From Chitinophagaceae bacterium (GTDB taxonomy: Bacteria > Bacteroidota > Bacteroidia > Chitinophagales > Chitinophagaceae): a stretch of 64,000 bases of DNA. The notes below the pieces were generated by a model. That model was not told where the DNA came from, ran no database searches, and saw only the letters and a list, made by a program, of their open reading frames with translations. Each line of letters opens with the position of its first letter. Positions within the stretch are counted from its first letter, which is position 1. Positions 28,531 to 34,806 of the stretch are shown here, in pieces. The stretch is from NCBI GenBank assembly GCA_903642275.1, contig CAHJWK010000002.1, positions 1 through 64,000 on the forward strand, written 5' to 3'. A program made the position numbers and the translations under genes.

Positions 28531-29490
28531 ATGATTGAAGTAAAAAAAGTCAGCAAAACATTTAAGGCACAAACTGCCGTTGACAATATTTCTTTTCATG
28601 TTGATGAAGGAGAAAATTTTGTACTGCTTGGAACCAGTGGTTGTGGCAAAACCACCACGTTAAAAATGATCAACCGTTTAACAGAACCAACAAGTGGTGA
28701 AATTTTTATCAATCAAAAAAATATTCAACAGGAAAATGCTGAAACATTAAGACGCAACATTGGTTATGCTTTGCAAAACACAGGATTGTTTCCGCATTAT
28801 ACTGTTGCAGAAAATATTGCAGTTGTCCCGGTTCTTTTTAAATGGAATAAAGAAAAGACTAAGCAACGTGTTGAAGAATTAATGAGCAAGCTGCATCTTT
28901 CAAAAGATTATTATAATTCCTATCCGCATGAATTGAGTGGTGGCCAGCAGCAACGTGTTGGTCTTGCAAGATCATTAGCCGCTAATGCTCCTTTGCTATT
29001 AATGGACGAACCTTTTGGTGCTCTTGACCCAATAACAAGAATAAAAGTGCGTAACGATTTTAAAAACCTTGAAGAATTTAAAAAGAAAACAATTGTATTG
29101 GTAACACATGATGTGCAGGAAGCATTTGAACTTGCCGATAGAATTTGTTTGATGAATAAAGGAAAGATTGTGCAGGTTGGTACATCAGCAGAATTGTTAT
29201 TTAAGCCGGCAAATGATTTTGTAAAAGATTTTTTTAATGAACAGAGATTGCAGTTAGAATATAAATCGGTTACTGTAAAAATGCTTTGGAACCTGATCAC
29301 TGATAAACCTGATTTAAATGAAGGTAATGATGAGCAAAAGTTACCGGCAGATGCAAATGTTTGGCAGGCTTTGGAATTTTTTAGTTTGAATAATCGCGAA
29401 GCATTGCTCGCAAAAAATGACAATGAAGAAAAGCATATTAATTATACATCACTGATGAATGCTTTCAATCAATACAAAAAAAATAATTGA
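28531..29490 (+). CDS. ABC transporter ATP-binding protein, OpuCA/EgtV type
   Basis: 319 residues. Walker A GTSGCGKTT, Q-loop YALQNTGLFPHYTVAENI, signature LSGGQQQRVGLARS, Walker B LLLMDEPFGALDP and the switch VTHDVQ are all intact. The region after about residue 245 (VWQALEFFSLNNREALLAKND...SLMNAF) looks like one degenerate CBS half, where OpuCA/EgtV proteins usually carry a CBS pair. The family imports glycine betaine, carnitine, choline or ergothioneine. It shares the TGATG overlap with the permease/binding-protein gene, and the egt genes lie downstream, so ergothioneine or hercynine is a reasonable guess at the ligand. Confidence 0.9.
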   Translation: MIEVKKVSKTFKAQTAVDNISFHVDEGENFVLLGTSGCGKTTTLKMINRLTEPTSGEIFINQKNIQQENAETLRRNIGYALQNTGLFPHYTVAENIAVVPVLFKWNKEKTKQRVEELMSKLHLSKDYYNSYPHELSGGQQQRVGLARSLAANAPLLLMDEPFGALDPITRIKVRNDFKNLEEFKKKTIVLVTHDVQEAFELADRICLMNKGKIVQVGTSAELLFKPANDFVKDFFNEQRLQLEYKSVTVKMLWNLITDKPDLNEGNDEQKLPADANVWQALEFFSLNNREALLAKNDNEEKHINYTSLMNAFNQYKKNN

Positions 29491-31064
29491 TGGAACAGCA
29501 ACAAAGTTTATGGGATTTTATTGTTCAGCAACGCGGCAAGTTGCTGGATCAAACCATTGCACATGTTGGCTTAACATTCATTTCCTTATTAGTCGCAGTT
29601 TTGATTGGTTTGCCTTTAGGAATTTTTATTGTGCGTCAAAAAAAAGCTACAGGAATTGTTTTAGGCATTGCAGGCGTTTTACAAACTATTCCAAGCATTG
29701 CATTACTTGGTTTTATGATTCCATTGTTAGGTATTGGCCCGTTACCTGCCATTACAGCTTTGTTTTTATATGCGTTATTGCCCATCATCAGAAACACTTA
29801 CACAGGTATCAGGGAAGTAAACCATAATATTACAGAAGCCGCTACTGCAATGGGTTTTAGCAAATGGCAAACATTAATAAAAGTTGAACTGCCATTGGCT
29901 TTTCCGGTTATCATGGCTGGTATAAGAACAGCAACGGTTATTAATGTTGGTGTAGCAACCCTAGCCTCTTTAATTGCTGCCGGCGGTTTAGGTGAATTTA
30001 TTTTTGGTGGCATTTCACTCAACAATACGAATATGATTTTAGCTGGTGCAATACCAGCCGCATTGCTTGCTATTTTGTTTGATTTTTTATTGTCGCGTGT
30101 GCAAAAAATCAATTTTAATAAGCTGAGAATTGTTGCCTTTCTTATGCCTTTTATTGTTCTATTGTTATCATCTTTTTACATAATTCCGTCATTTGAAAAA
30201 AATAAATTGCTTGCAGGTTTTACGCCGGAGTTTATGGGCAGGCAAGATGGTTATTTGGGGTTAATATCAACCTATAAATTAAAAATAAAAAATGTTGTTA
30301 TTAGTGATGCAATAATGTATAAAGCGGCGTATGAAAAAAAATTAGATGTTATAAGTGGTTACAGCAGCGATGGAAGATTAAAGGCATTTGATTTGCTTGT
30401 GTTGGATGATGACAGACATATTTTCCCGCCTTATTATGCAGCACCGGTAATCAGGAATGATGTGTTATTAAAGTATCCTGAAGTTGAAAATGTATTGAAC
30501 CTGCTTTCAGGAAAAATTAATGATTCGATTATGACCGACTTAAATTATAAAGTTGATTATCTTAAACAATCTCCGGAAAAAGTGGCAAAAGACTTTTTAG
30601 TAAAAAACAATCTTTATAAACAACCACGCAATGGTTCAAAAGGGACAATAAAATTGGGTTCAAAAATTTTTGGTGAACAGTATATTTTAATCAACATGTA
30701 TTCAATGATTATTAAAGGTTATACTGATTTAAACGTTGATACAAAAACAGGTTTAGGTGGAACGAGTATTTGTTTTGATGCGATTATCAACAACCAGATT
30801 GACATGTACCCTGAATATACAGGAACAGGTTTGCTGGCAATATTAAATGCAACAACAAACACAGTTAGCAGCTTGCATCAAAACCGTGACAGTGTTTATG
30901 GTTATGTTTCTGATAAGTTTAAAAAGGAATATAATTTGGTTTGGTTAAAACCAATTGGATTTAATAATGCATATGCTTTAATGATGCGTAGAAAACAAAG
31001 TGATGAGTTGAATGTGCATACAATATCGCAATTAGTCAATTATACCAATGAAAGCAAAAAATAA
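29490..31064 (+). CDS. ABC permease fused to a circularly permuted substrate-binding domain (OpuC/EgtU type)
   Basis: 524 residues from ATG 29490 (TTG 29487 is one codon upstream). Residues 1-205 form the OpuCB-like permease with five or six helices and the coupling motif EAATAMGFSKWQTLIKVELP. After one more helix (about 215-233) comes a type-F binding domain in unusual order. First come motifs that normally lie in its C-terminal half (PEFMGRQDGYLGL, DVISGYSSDGR, FPPYYAAPVIRND, LNYKVD). Then come those of its N-terminal half (IKLGSKIFGEQYIL, GGTSICFDAI, DMYPEYTGTGLLAIL, WLKPIGFNNAYAL), after which the gene stops. Both halves occur once. Fusion of permease and binding domain is known for OpuC-like proteins and EgtU; the permuted order is what I see here. 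Confidence 0.87.
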   Translation: MEQQQSLWDFIVQQRGKLLDQTIAHVGLTFISLLVAVLIGLPLGIFIVRQKKATGIVLGIAGVLQTIPSIALLGFMIPLLGIGPLPAITALFLYALLPIIRNTYTGIREVNHNITEAATAMGFSKWQTLIKVELPLAFPVIMAGIRTATVINVGVATLASLIAAGGLGEFIFGGISLNNTNMILAGAIPAALLAILFDFLLSRVQKINFNKLRIVAFLMPFIVLLLSSFYIIPSFEKNKLLAGFTPEFMGRQDGYLGLISTYKLKIKNVVISDAIMYKAAYEKKLDVISGYSSDGRLKAFDLLVLDDDRHIFPPYYAAPVIRNDVLLKYPEVENVLNLLSGKINDSIMTDLNYKVDYLKQSPEKVAKDFLVKNNLYKQPRNGSKGTIKLGSKIFGEQYILINMYSMIIKGYTDLNVDTKTGLGGTSICFDAIINNQIDMYPEYTGTGLLAILNATTNTVSSLHQNRDSVYGYVSDKFKKEYNLVWLKPIGFNNAYALMMRRKQSDELNVHTISQLVNYTNESKK

Positions 31065-31090: not shown

Positions 31091-32587
31091 ATGCTACGCT
31101 TTGCAATTCTTTTTGTTTCGATTATTTATGCGTTTACTAATTCTGTTTTTTCGCAGGTTAAGCATATTATATATAAAGAAAGCTTTGAAGATTTTTCTAA
31201 TCCGGAACGAGGTTTTTATATTCCTTTTACAACCGGCAGCAGCAATTTCACTCCATTAAATTTAGACAAACTAAAAGCATTTCATTCTGTACCTCAACAG
31301 GCAAAGTCAGCCAGTTATTCTTTTTACGGATCACTCATTTACCGTTCTTACCGCCTTGAAACATTTAAGTCAGGCGCCATTGATACAGGCTTTCTTGGTT
31401 TAATACAAAATGATTTTAATGTAGTTCGTGAAGCAGGTTTAAAAGTAATCCTTCGCTTTTCTTATATTGATCAATCGCATTCAGGTAATTGCACTGATGA
31501 GTACAAAATTTGCCCACCGTATGGTGATGCTCCTAAAAATATTGTGCTAATGCACATTGCACAGCTTAAACCTTTGCTGCAAAAAAATGCTGACGTGATT
31601 GCTGTCTTACAAATGGGTTTTATTGGTATTTGGGGTGAAAATTATTTTACTGATTATTTTGGAGATGCATCAACTAATCATCTTGGTTATGTAGCTGACA
31701 GTAGTTGGAGAGACCGTAATGAAGTGTTAAAAGCTTTGCTTGATGCATTACCGGAAGACCGCATGGTGCAAGTGCGTACTCCACAAATAAAACAACGCTT
31801 TGTATATGGCCCAAAAGCACCTGTTACTTCTGCTGCGCTTACAGAAAATGAATCCTATACAGAAAATGATAAAGCACGAATAGGTTTTCATAATGATTGT
31901 TTTTTAAGCAGTGTTGATGATTATGGAACTTTTTACAATTATGGCAATTCTTCATCCTCACGTGATACAGCTAATATTAGGTTGCAGCATTATTTTACAA
32001 ATGACAGTCGCTATACTGCAATTGGCGGCGAAACATGTGATGACGCATTTAGTCCTCAAAACAATTGTGGTGGAGCGCAACAAATAATGGCTGCCATGCA
32101 TTATAGTTGTTTAAATGCAGCTTATAATAATACTGTAAATAATGATTGGGACAGCGGCGGCTGCATAAGTGAGATTAAACGCAATCTTGGTTACAGATTT
32201 GTTTTGTTAAGTACAGACTTACCTTCAATGGTAAAAATAAAAAGTAAATTAAATATACAAATCAAATTAAAAAATGTTGGTTATGCATCGCCTTTTAATC
32301 CAAGGCCTGTTCAGCTTGTTCTTCGAAACTTAAAAACAAAAAAGATTACTTGCGTTCCAATGCAAACAGACGTAAGAAAATGGTTTAGCGGTGATGTTTT
32401 AATTAATGAAAATTTAACCATGTCACATAACATTGATCCGGGATCATATGAATTACTCCTCAATCTGCCTGATGGTTATACTTCGTTGGCAAAGCGTGCT
32501 GTGTATAGTATTCGCTTTGCAAATGAAAACCTTTGGGAAGCTGAATCCGGTTACAATAAACTCAATTGTACAATCAGGGTAGAATGA
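31091..32587 (+). CDS. Secreted DUF4874/DUF4832 protein
   Basis: 498 residues with a signal peptide (FVSIIYAFTNSVFSQ). The first domain (about 25-190) contains FSNPERGFYIPF, VVREAGLKVILRFSY and LQMGFIGIWGENYF, the pattern of the DUF4874 TIM-barrel-like domain. The second (about 200-490) matches DUF4832. Function unknown; these domains are found in secreted proteins thought to be glycosidase-like. It begins 26 bp after the transporter gene and precedes egtB by 93 bp in the same direction, so it may belong to the same transcript. Confidence 0.78.
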   Translation: MLRFAILFVSIIYAFTNSVFSQVKHIIYKESFEDFSNPERGFYIPFTTGSSNFTPLNLDKLKAFHSVPQQAKSASYSFYGSLIYRSYRLETFKSGAIDTGFLGLIQNDFNVVREAGLKVILRFSYIDQSHSGNCTDEYKICPPYGDAPKNIVLMHIAQLKPLLQKNADVIAVLQMGFIGIWGENYFTDYFGDASTNHLGYVADSSWRDRNEVLKALLDALPEDRMVQVRTPQIKQRFVYGPKAPVTSAALTENESYTENDKARIGFHNDCFLSSVDDYGTFYNYGNSSSSRDTANIRLQHYFTNDSRYTAIGGETCDDAFSPQNNCGGAQQIMAAMHYSCLNAAYNNTVNNDWDSGGCISEIKRNLGYRFVLLSTDLPSMVKIKSKLNIQIKLKNVGYASPFNPRPVQLVLRNLKTKKITCVPMQTDVRKWFSGDVLINENLTMSHNIDPGSYELLLNLPDGYTSLAKRAVYSIRFANENLWEAESGYNKLNCTIRVE

Positions 32588-32680: not shown

Positions 32681-33826
32681 ATGAATTTACAAGAACGTTT
32701 TCAACAAGTCCGCAACCGCTCAGCAAGCATTTGTGCCAATCTTCAAACAGAAGATTATGTGGTGCAGCCAGTGGTTGACGTCAGTCCACCCAAATGGCAC
32801 CTTGGTCATACAACATGGTTTTGGGAGGAAATGATTTTAAAACCAAACGATGAAAACTATCAAGAGTTCAATCCAAATTATAACTACGTTTTTAATAGTT
32901 ATTATGAATCGGTCGGTGCAAGAGTTATAAGAACAGACAGAGGTAATTTGAGCCGTCCATCTGTTGAAGATGTTTATAAATACCGTAAGTATATTGATGA
33001 AGCCATGTCGCACTTCTTGAGGAATAGTTTAAGTAAGGAATTGAACAATTTAATTGTGCTTGGATTAAATCATGAGGAGCAGCACCAGGAATTATTAGCA
33101 ACTGATATCAAATTTATTTTAGGTAACAATCCGTTGTTTCCTGCTTTGTATCAGGAAGAAAAAAAATTATCTGCATTAAAACAAAAGGAGTGGATACATA
33201 TTGATGAAGGCATGTATGAAATAGGTTTTGAAGGCGAAAGTTTTTGTTTTGATAATGAGTTGAACCGTCATAAAGTATATCTTAATGATTATTCTATTTC
33301 AAGTGAACCTGTAATCAACAAAGAATATCTCGAGTTTATAAATACCGGCGGCTATAAAAATTTTATTTACTGGCACATGGAAGGTTGGGAATGGGTAAAA
33401 GCAAACCAGGTTAATGCACCGATGTATTGGCACTTGATTAATGGTGAATGGATGAACTATACACTAAATGGTTTGATGCCGGTTGATTTAAATGAACCTG
33501 TTTGTCATATTAGTTTTTATGAGGCGTATGCGTATGCTTCCTGGAAAGGTTTGCGTTTGCCAACAGAAGCTGAATGGGAAGTTGCCGCAACAAAATTTAA
33601 ATGGGGTAAACGCTGGGAATGGACTGAAAGTGCTTATTTACCGTATCCTGGTTTTTCAAAAGCACCTGGCGCCGTTGGTGAGTATAATGGTAAGTTTATG
33701 GTAAATCAAAAAGTACTGCGCGGTGCATCTGAAATAACTCCACCTAATCACAGCCGCATCACTTACAGAAACTTTTTTCATGCGCCGTTACGCTGGCAAT
33801 ATACAGGCATACGTCTTGCTAAATAA
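32681..33826 (+). CDS. egtB: Ergothioneine biosynthesis protein EgtB
   Basis: 381 residues. The N-terminal DinB-like domain carries the iron ligands: His at residue 43 in KWHLGHTTWFWEE (or 40) and HEEQHQE at 131-137, the HX3HXE motif. The C-terminal FGE-sulfatase-like domain has GLRLPTEAEWEVAA and the ending LRWQYTGIRLAK. EgtB is the non-heme iron enzyme that joins hercynine to a thiol (gamma-glutamylcysteine or cysteine) with oxygen to form the sulfoxide precursor of ergothioneine. egtD follows after 8 bp. No egtC or egtE is seen in the window. Confidence 0.93.
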   Translation: MNLQERFQQVRNRSASICANLQTEDYVVQPVVDVSPPKWHLGHTTWFWEEMILKPNDENYQEFNPNYNYVFNSYYESVGARVIRTDRGNLSRPSVEDVYKYRKYIDEAMSHFLRNSLSKELNNLIVLGLNHEEQHQELLATDIKFILGNNPLFPALYQEEKKLSALKQKEWIHIDEGMYEIGFEGESFCFDNELNRHKVYLNDYSISSEPVINKEYLEFINTGGYKNFIYWHMEGWEWVKANQVNAPMYWHLINGEWMNYTLNGLMPVDLNEPVCHISFYEAYAYASWKGLRLPTEAEWEVAATKFKWGKRWEWTESAYLPYPGFSKAPGAVGEYNGKFMVNQKVLRGASEITPPNHSRITYRNFFHAPLRWQYTGIRLAK

Positions 33827-33834
33827 ACTTACAT

Positions 33835-34806
33835 ATGCAACTAACAACCGTATCAGAAAACATAACAACAAAGTTTTATAAAGATGTAATGAAAGGTTTG
33901 CAATCATCATCAAAATACCTTGAGTCAAAATATTTTTATGATGATCATGGTGATGATCTGTTTCAGCAAATCATGCATTGTGATGAATACTATCTTACAG
34001 ATTGTGAAATGGAAATTTTAAAAAACCAATCTGCGGATATTGCTTCCACCATTTTTGCTTCAGAAAAAAGTTATGATATAATAGAATTAGGCGCAGGCGA
34101 TTGCAGCAAGTCGGTTTATCTGCTAAGACAAGTTTTAAAGCGTAATAAAAACGTCACTTTTTTCCCGGTTGATATTTCAAAACATGTGATTGATTTAATT
34201 AAAGAGGAGTTGCCTAAAAAAGTTCGCAACTTAAACATACAAGGCCTCAATGGTGAGTACATGGAGATGCTTAAAAAAGCAAATCAGCTATCAATAAAAA
34301 GAAAGCTGGTTTTGTTTATGGGTAGCAATATTGGTAACATGAACTATAAGCAATCCATTGCTTTCTGTAAAGAAGTAAGAAGCAGTTTAAAGCCTGGAGA
34401 TTGTTTGCTGATTGGCTTTGATTTAAAGAAGGATCCGAAAATAATCCTTGATGCTTACAACGATAAACAAGGGATTACACGTGAGTTTAATCTTAATTTA
34501 TTAAAACGAATAAACAGGGAATTAAATGCAGACTTCTCTATTGAAAAATTTTCACATTTTCCTGTTTACAATCCCGAAAATGGCGAATGCAAGAGTTACT
34601 TAATCAGCAACTGCAAACAACGTGTGTTTATTGGTGACACAGAGTTTATAAATTTTGATGCATACGAAACTATTGATATGGAAATTTCAACCAAGTATTC
34701 AATTGAACAAATCAATCATATTGCTGGAAAGTGTGACTTTGAAACCATTGAACATTTTTATGATTCAAAACAATGGTTTGTTGATGCATTATGGAAGTGT
34801 GTATAA
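33835..34806 (+). CDS. egtD: L-histidine N(alpha)-methyltransferase EgtD
   Basis: 323 residues, standard length. Family stretches: KYFYDDHGDDLFQQIM, DIIELGAGDCSKS (SAM motif I), LVLFMGSNIGNM and DAYNDKQGITREFNLNLL, which holds the Asn/Tyr residues contacting histidine. It trimethylates histidine to hercynine, the first step of ergothioneine synthesis. It lies 8 bp after egtB; together with the upstream transporter it makes a coherent trimethylammonium-thiol locus. Confidence 0.94.
   Translation: MQLTTVSENITTKFYKDVMKGLQSSSKYLESKYFYDDHGDDLFQQIMHCDEYYLTDCEMEILKNQSADIASTIFASEKSYDIIELGAGDCSKSVYLLRQVLKRNKNVTFFPVDISKHVIDLIKEELPKKVRNLNIQGLNGEYMEMLKKANQLSIKRKLVLFMGSNIGNMNYKQSIAFCKEVRSSLKPGDCLLIGFDLKKDPKIILDAYNDKQGITREFNLNLLKRINRELNADFSIEKFSHFPVYNPENGECKSYLISNCKQRVFIGDTEFINFDAYETIDMEISTKYSIEQINHIAGKCDFETIEHFYDSKQWFVDALWKCV

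Follow-up and report, generated by a model that had tools for sequence, protein, structure and literature searches.

The gene at positions 29490-31064 of a Chitinophagaceae contig encodes an ABC transporter permease fused to one complete substrate-binding domain of the OpuC/EgtU type, and this binding domain is circularly permuted. The site was already known to be permuted; this is a second, independent case, found here in a permease fusion and conserved over a large lineage of Bacteroidota. The window, that is, the whole stretch of DNA analysed, comprises the first 64,000 nucleotides of contig CAHJWK010000002.1 (assembly GCA_903642275.1). Taken as a whole, we consider it likely that the protein is an importer subunit that was permuted once in Bacteroidota and that most likely serves ergothioneine or hercynine.

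The open reading frame at 29490-31064 (+ strand) translates into 524 amino acids with no internal stop, and the opposite strand contains many stops. Its parts and its neighbours in the window are as follows.

28531-29490, + strand: ABC transporter ATPase, ProV/OpuCA-like (ABC_tran, 3.3e-39; TIGR01186, 303 bits, below the cut-off of 326.6)
29490-31064, + strand: permease with circularly permuted substrate-binding domain, 524 amino acids (translation, Pfam, homologues)
29607-30125, + strand: BPD_transp_1 transmembrane domain, residues 40-212 (Pfam, 1.3e-26)
30114-30194, + strand: last membrane helix and presumed anchor of the binding domain, helix 209-235 in the model (AF2 secondary structure)
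30201-30620, + strand: standard C-terminal half (most of lobe D2, return to D1), here first, residues 238-377 (PF04069 114-255; EgtUC chain 136-276)
30618-30644, + strand: linker KQPRNGSKG between the old C- and N-termini, residues 377-385 (variable alignment stretch between the halves)
30645-31052, + strand: N-terminal half of the standard domain (D1 for the most part, with the first strand and helix of D2), placed last here, residues 386-521 (PF04069 2-113; EgtUC chain 3-135)
31091-32587: DUF4874/DUF4832 gene, between the transporter and egtB
32681-33826, + strand: egtB-like ergothioneine synthase gene (TIGR03440, 531.8 bits, cut-off 360)
33835-34806, + strand: egtD-like histidine N-alpha-methyltransferase gene (Pfam Methyltransf_33, 327.7 bits; TIGR03438, 287.7 bits, just below the cut-off of 290.9)

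The BPD_transp_1 domain and the ABC ATPase gene alongside identify the protein as a type I ABC importer permease. The stop codon of the ATPase gene overlaps the permease start by one base (TGATG), and an ATPase gene lies upstream of the permuted fusion in nearly all of the best 80 named relatives. The ATPase encoded at 28531-29490 carries a C-terminal tail of about 70 residues past the stretch matched by related ATPases, possibly a regulatory one.

The Pfam OpuAC profile (PF04069) matches the protein with 183.1 bits (gathering threshold 21.2), in two stretches that jointly cover profile positions 2-255 of 257. The first stretch (residues 239-370) corresponds to profile positions 114-255; in genome coordinates, a profile search places positions 114-255 at 30204-30599 and positions 2-113 at 30645-31049. 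The order of the halves thus departs from that of the Pfam profile, an order that is not universal in PF04069, since the OpuAC protein of Bacillus subtilis (2B4L) departs from it too. The pieces of the profile join without a gap (113|114), so the protein has one full copy of each half, with the order swapped. When a profile of 39 homologues is compared with EgtUC (7txl), positions 148-284 align to chain residues 3-135 and positions 3-143 to chain residues 136-276, so that the halves meet at 135|136 with zero residues lost. The similarity is far above chance, with E-values of about 1e-50 (phmmer) and about 1e-80 (profile). A sequence-only reading of this DNA had already described a domain fused to the permease and tethered through its second lobe, in which the second motif set comes first, the first set comes last, each half occurs once and a short linker joins the old termini; our results bear it out on all these points. 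The candidate explanation that the second half begins an unrelated domain is ruled out by the Pfam and profile matches, which identify it as the start of the OpuAC domain.

Where does the cut fall? Taking K242 of the Streptococcus pneumoniae protein (SpEgtU) as chain residue 13, EgtUC 135|136 corresponds to about SpEgtU 364|365. Lobe D2 of SpEgtU spans residues 341-432 and is flanked by the hinge strands (PMC9732360). The new termini therefore lie inside lobe 2 and not in the hinge region, where the sequence-only reading had put them: the cut is in a helix-to-strand loop within D2. A tandem duplication followed by trimming is a plausible origin, consistent with the data, although no tandem-duplicated intermediate turned up among the loci retrieved. 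Duplication and then trimming is the usual route to circular permutation.

In the named-genome scan, egtB lies near 76 and egtD near 75 of the best 80 loci, and three of the five exceptions are on short contigs. The DUF4874/DUF4832 gene has no counterpart by blast in these best 80 named relatives, where egtB usually comes directly next. A scan for promoters and terminators found sites no more numerous than in shuffled sequences. The permuted protein is present at full length in 19 of 149 Chitinophagaceae genomes, the source genome included, and as a fragment in one more; in a sample of the phylum, 22 of 395 genomes carry it. Among Chitinophagaceae, egtD occurs in 20/20 carriers (fragment genome included) versus 4/129 non-carriers (p 3e-21) and, in the phylum sample, in 22/22 carriers versus 106/373 other genomes (p 5e-12), counts that are uncorrected for phylogeny. 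As the source genome belongs to both sets, 41 carriers were tested in all, every one with egtD. Coordinates place egtD near the transporter gene, within one contig, for 17 of the 20 Chitinophagaceae carriers; it is unlinked yet present in families f9 and f34 and in two f10 genomes. Fusions of standard half order in Bacteroidota also co-occur with egtD (16 of 17 genomes), and the link is thus one of the transporter family in this phylum, not of the permutation. Fusions with the binding domain first (L053-L060; L169, L170) are sometimes found beside egtB or egtD.

The ligand pocket is largely that of SpEgtU. With residues mapped through the EgtUC profile alignment, the SpEgtU contacts K242, T296, N339, Y341, R379 and Y443 correspond to K392, T446, N493, Y495, R251 and Y315, which are invariant in 39/39 permuted proteins, and the cage residue Y419 corresponds to Y291 (30360-30362), a Tyr in 33 of the 39 and a Ser in the other six. 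This Ser may mark a subgroup with another ligand specificity. Both G244 and a Tyr-to-Phe switch at F293 have been credited with the affinity of SpEgtU for ergothioneine (PMC9732360). These determinants are not kept: G244 is replaced by F394 (F in 35, Q in 4 of 39) and F293 by Y443 (Y in 39/39). The contacts being kept and G244 and F293 not, the site is a betaine pocket minus two features credited for ergothioneine affinity in SpEgtU, and F394 and Y443 would fit a broader or different betaine.

The most serious alternative is one of function: the permuted protein could import an osmolyte betaine (choline, glycine betaine or carnitine), its egt neighbours being incidental or reflecting shared stress regulation. 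The pocket speaks for it, as it retains GSKxF and YPEYTGT and lacks the G244 and F293 of SpEgtU; the genomic distribution speaks against it, as egtD is present in all 41 carriers tested, unlinked cases included, and in 16/17 genomes with normal-order fusions of the phylum. We regard this osmolyte role as unlikely, although it retains some weight. We read the system as a betaine ABC importer whose ligand is probably ergothioneine or one of its close derivatives. Its most likely role is to import or recapture ergothioneine itself or a near relative, hercynine for instance, a ligand to which we give about two chances in three. An importer next to biosynthesis genes could also serve a precursor or another betaine.

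AlphaFold models were built from the 39 homologues for the whole protein (pLDDT 82.4, pTM 0.64) and for residues 235-524 alone (pLDDT 93.6, pTM 0.90). The latter is one compact two-lobed domain, the outcome by which the sequence-only reading had proposed to judge its claim. With Foldseek, the domain model aligns to B. subtilis OpuAC over 301 columns (TM 0.70 by target length, 16% identity) versus about 139 columns for EgtUC (43% identity), and the full-length model displays the same contrast. VIA-align gives Z 20.7 for OpuAC (244 residues, 3.1 A) and Z 10.3 for the next different protein; the alignments with EgtU-like sensor proteins cover about 143 residues. In these model comparisons, B. subtilis OpuAC thus appears as the only convincing end-to-end match, EgtUC and other closer relatives matching over one half. 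The permuted domain is EgtU-like in sequence and OpuAC-like in connectivity. Such importers use two permease chains, so that the halves might in principle pair across the dimer by domain swapping instead of forming one domain in cis; we find this very improbable, since the isolated single-chain model is compact and of high confidence and since betaine-bound structures exist for OpuAC (2B4L, 2B4M), whose topology is the same.

The resemblance to OpuAC raises the question of a common origin. Our OpuAC query, in agreement with PDB 2B4L across all 258 residues, matches 2B4L at full length and the OpuA protein of Lactococcus lactis (3L6G, 7AHC) in two swapped pieces, OpuAC 1-148 to 3L6G 107-255 and OpuAC 156-256 to 3L6G 3-102. 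B. subtilis OpuAC is therefore permuted relative to L. lactis OpuA, at the site homologous to that of the Bacteroidota cut. Circular-permutation relations among glycine-betaine-binding proteins, 2B4L included, were reported in 2008 with CPSARST (PMC2395249). The sequence-only reading knew of no such arrangement in this family and called for a search; OpuAC is a precedent. In the open-licence literature, neither a permease fusion of the permuted form nor its presence in the EgtU/OpuC branch came to light, and no paper treated permuted transporters and ergothioneine jointly in a relevant way.

Both trees, of the domain (support 100/99) and of the permease (96/87), unite the permuted proteins in a single clade. 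In a first domain tree that included two very long branches (L154_SBP and L152), support for the clade was 84/68, versus 100/99 without them. In that first domain tree, the permuted binding domain groups with the EgtU-like fusions of Bacillota (97/93), and B. subtilis OpuAC joins the normal-order OpuA of L. lactis (99/93). Forcing OpuAC into the Bacteroidota clade costs 170 log-likelihood units with the long branches removed (AU p 2e-5) and 214 units with the two long-branched rows kept (AU p 3.8e-5). The homologous cut site and the full-length structural match might suggest a single ancient event inherited in common with OpuAC, but the grouping of OpuAC with normal-order OpuA, both AU tests and the profile search, in which EgtUC scores 8e-80 while OpuAC is missing from the hits up to an E-value of 1, make this reading highly improbable. 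Shared descent being strongly rejected (AU p 2e-5), the permutation of the Bacteroidota permease fusion is a parallel, second event, and permutation arose at least twice in the OpuAC (PF04069) family, at the same loop. As a separate observation, a plasmid ABC permease gene (L154, 813-1529) is labelled AAC(3)-VIIIa aminoglycoside resistance in PLSDB and looks mislabelled.

The swapped order is widespread. Permease, C-half and N-half follow each other in one open reading frame in 80/80 named loci (the best 80 matches kept from the named-genome scan), from Parafilimonas, Mucilaginibacter, Pedobacter, Dyadobacter, Chitinophaga, Niastella, Chryseobacterium and other genera; apart from these, 39 other genomes have the same order in single reading frames, some possibly being the same organisms as named loci. 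This identical order in the best 80/80 named loci and the 39 other genomes leaves a negligible chance that a normal-order gene was broken and rejoined by an assembly or annotation artefact. The survey of Bacteroidota homologues and the check for an assembly break that the sequence-only reading had called for thus come out in favour of a genuine gene order. Eight other Bacteroidota homologues checked (L053-L060) have the standard half order with the binding domain before the permease; Bacillota fusions have the standard half order with the binding domain after it.

How might such a protein work? We propose that the binding domain of a type I ABC importer membrane subunit was permuted once in an ancestor of this Bacteroidota lineage and retained ever after. 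Leaving the permease by its last membrane helix, the chain would enter lobe 2, run through most of it to lobe 1, cross the short linker that joins the old ends, complete lobe 1 and finish with the strand and helix that open lobe 2 in the standard order. Since the domain retains its fold and most of the aromatic cage, it should bind a trimethylammonium-carboxylate ligand, which it would hand over to the permease in the manner of OpuA and EgtU. With the adjacent ATPase, the complex would most likely serve for uptake, or recapture after leakage, of ergothioneine or its precursor hercynine in bacteria that make ergothioneine. Transport, its direction, the ligand and any mechanical effect of the lobe-2 tether are here inferred. 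The tethered domain may dock over the partner chain or sit nearer the membrane. That lobe-2 tethering was selected, altering the reach of the domain to the permease dimer within a dedicated ergothioneine recapture system of ergothioneine-making Bacteroidota, is a tentative idea that we hold to be rather doubtful.

At least two permutations have thus struck the homologous loop of this fold, and each put the new N-terminus in lobe 2; in the Bacteroidota protein it follows a membrane helix. B. subtilis OpuAC is lipid-anchored at its N-terminus. Together the two cases form a natural replicate in which to ask whether permutation is favoured by anchoring, an idea already raised for TpMglB-2 (see below). 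They are also a reminder that order-based sequence and fold comparison can see only half of such proteins. Finally, the Bacteroidota protein points to an uncharacterised transporter accompanying ergothioneine biosynthesis genes across the phylum.

Among the closest known systems, EgtU (EgtUBC) of S. pneumoniae (PDB 7TXL), like its Enterococcus faecalis homologue (L149), is a permease with a C-terminal binding domain, as here. The profile match to EgtUC (8e-80) places the permuted protein among OpuC/EgtU-group fusions; its domain shows 42-43% identity across the larger half, most ligand contacts are common and the partner ATPase gene is adjacent in both. However, EgtU has the standard half order, a lobe-1 tether, G244 and F293, whereas the permuted protein has swapped halves, a lobe-2 tether, F394 and Y443. 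In PMC9732360, S. pneumoniae, which takes up ergothioneine, is regarded as lacking the ability to synthesise it.

B. subtilis OpuAC (2B4L) belongs to the same Pfam family and shares the homologous cut and the topology (Z 20.7, 244 residues), but it is a separate, unfused binding protein with 15-17% identity, it groups with OpuA-type proteins and it was permuted in an independent event. L. lactis OpuA (7AHC/7AHD) is a type I importer with the binding domain C-terminal to the permease, as here, although in standard half order, and its binding domain is barely detected by the profile (E 0.03). The binding-domain-first fusions of Bacteroidota (L053-L060) contain the same two domains in one chain, with an adjacent ATPase and egtD in 16/17 genomes; unlike the permuted protein, they keep the standard half order, with the domain ahead of the permease. 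Another membrane-tethered ABC binding protein that is circularly permuted in nature is TpMglB-2 (Tp0684) of Treponema pallidum, which is however of a different class, a Type I/cluster B glucose-binding lipoprotein with no permease fusion; its authors propose membrane anchoring as a possible reason for the permutation (PMC4990184).
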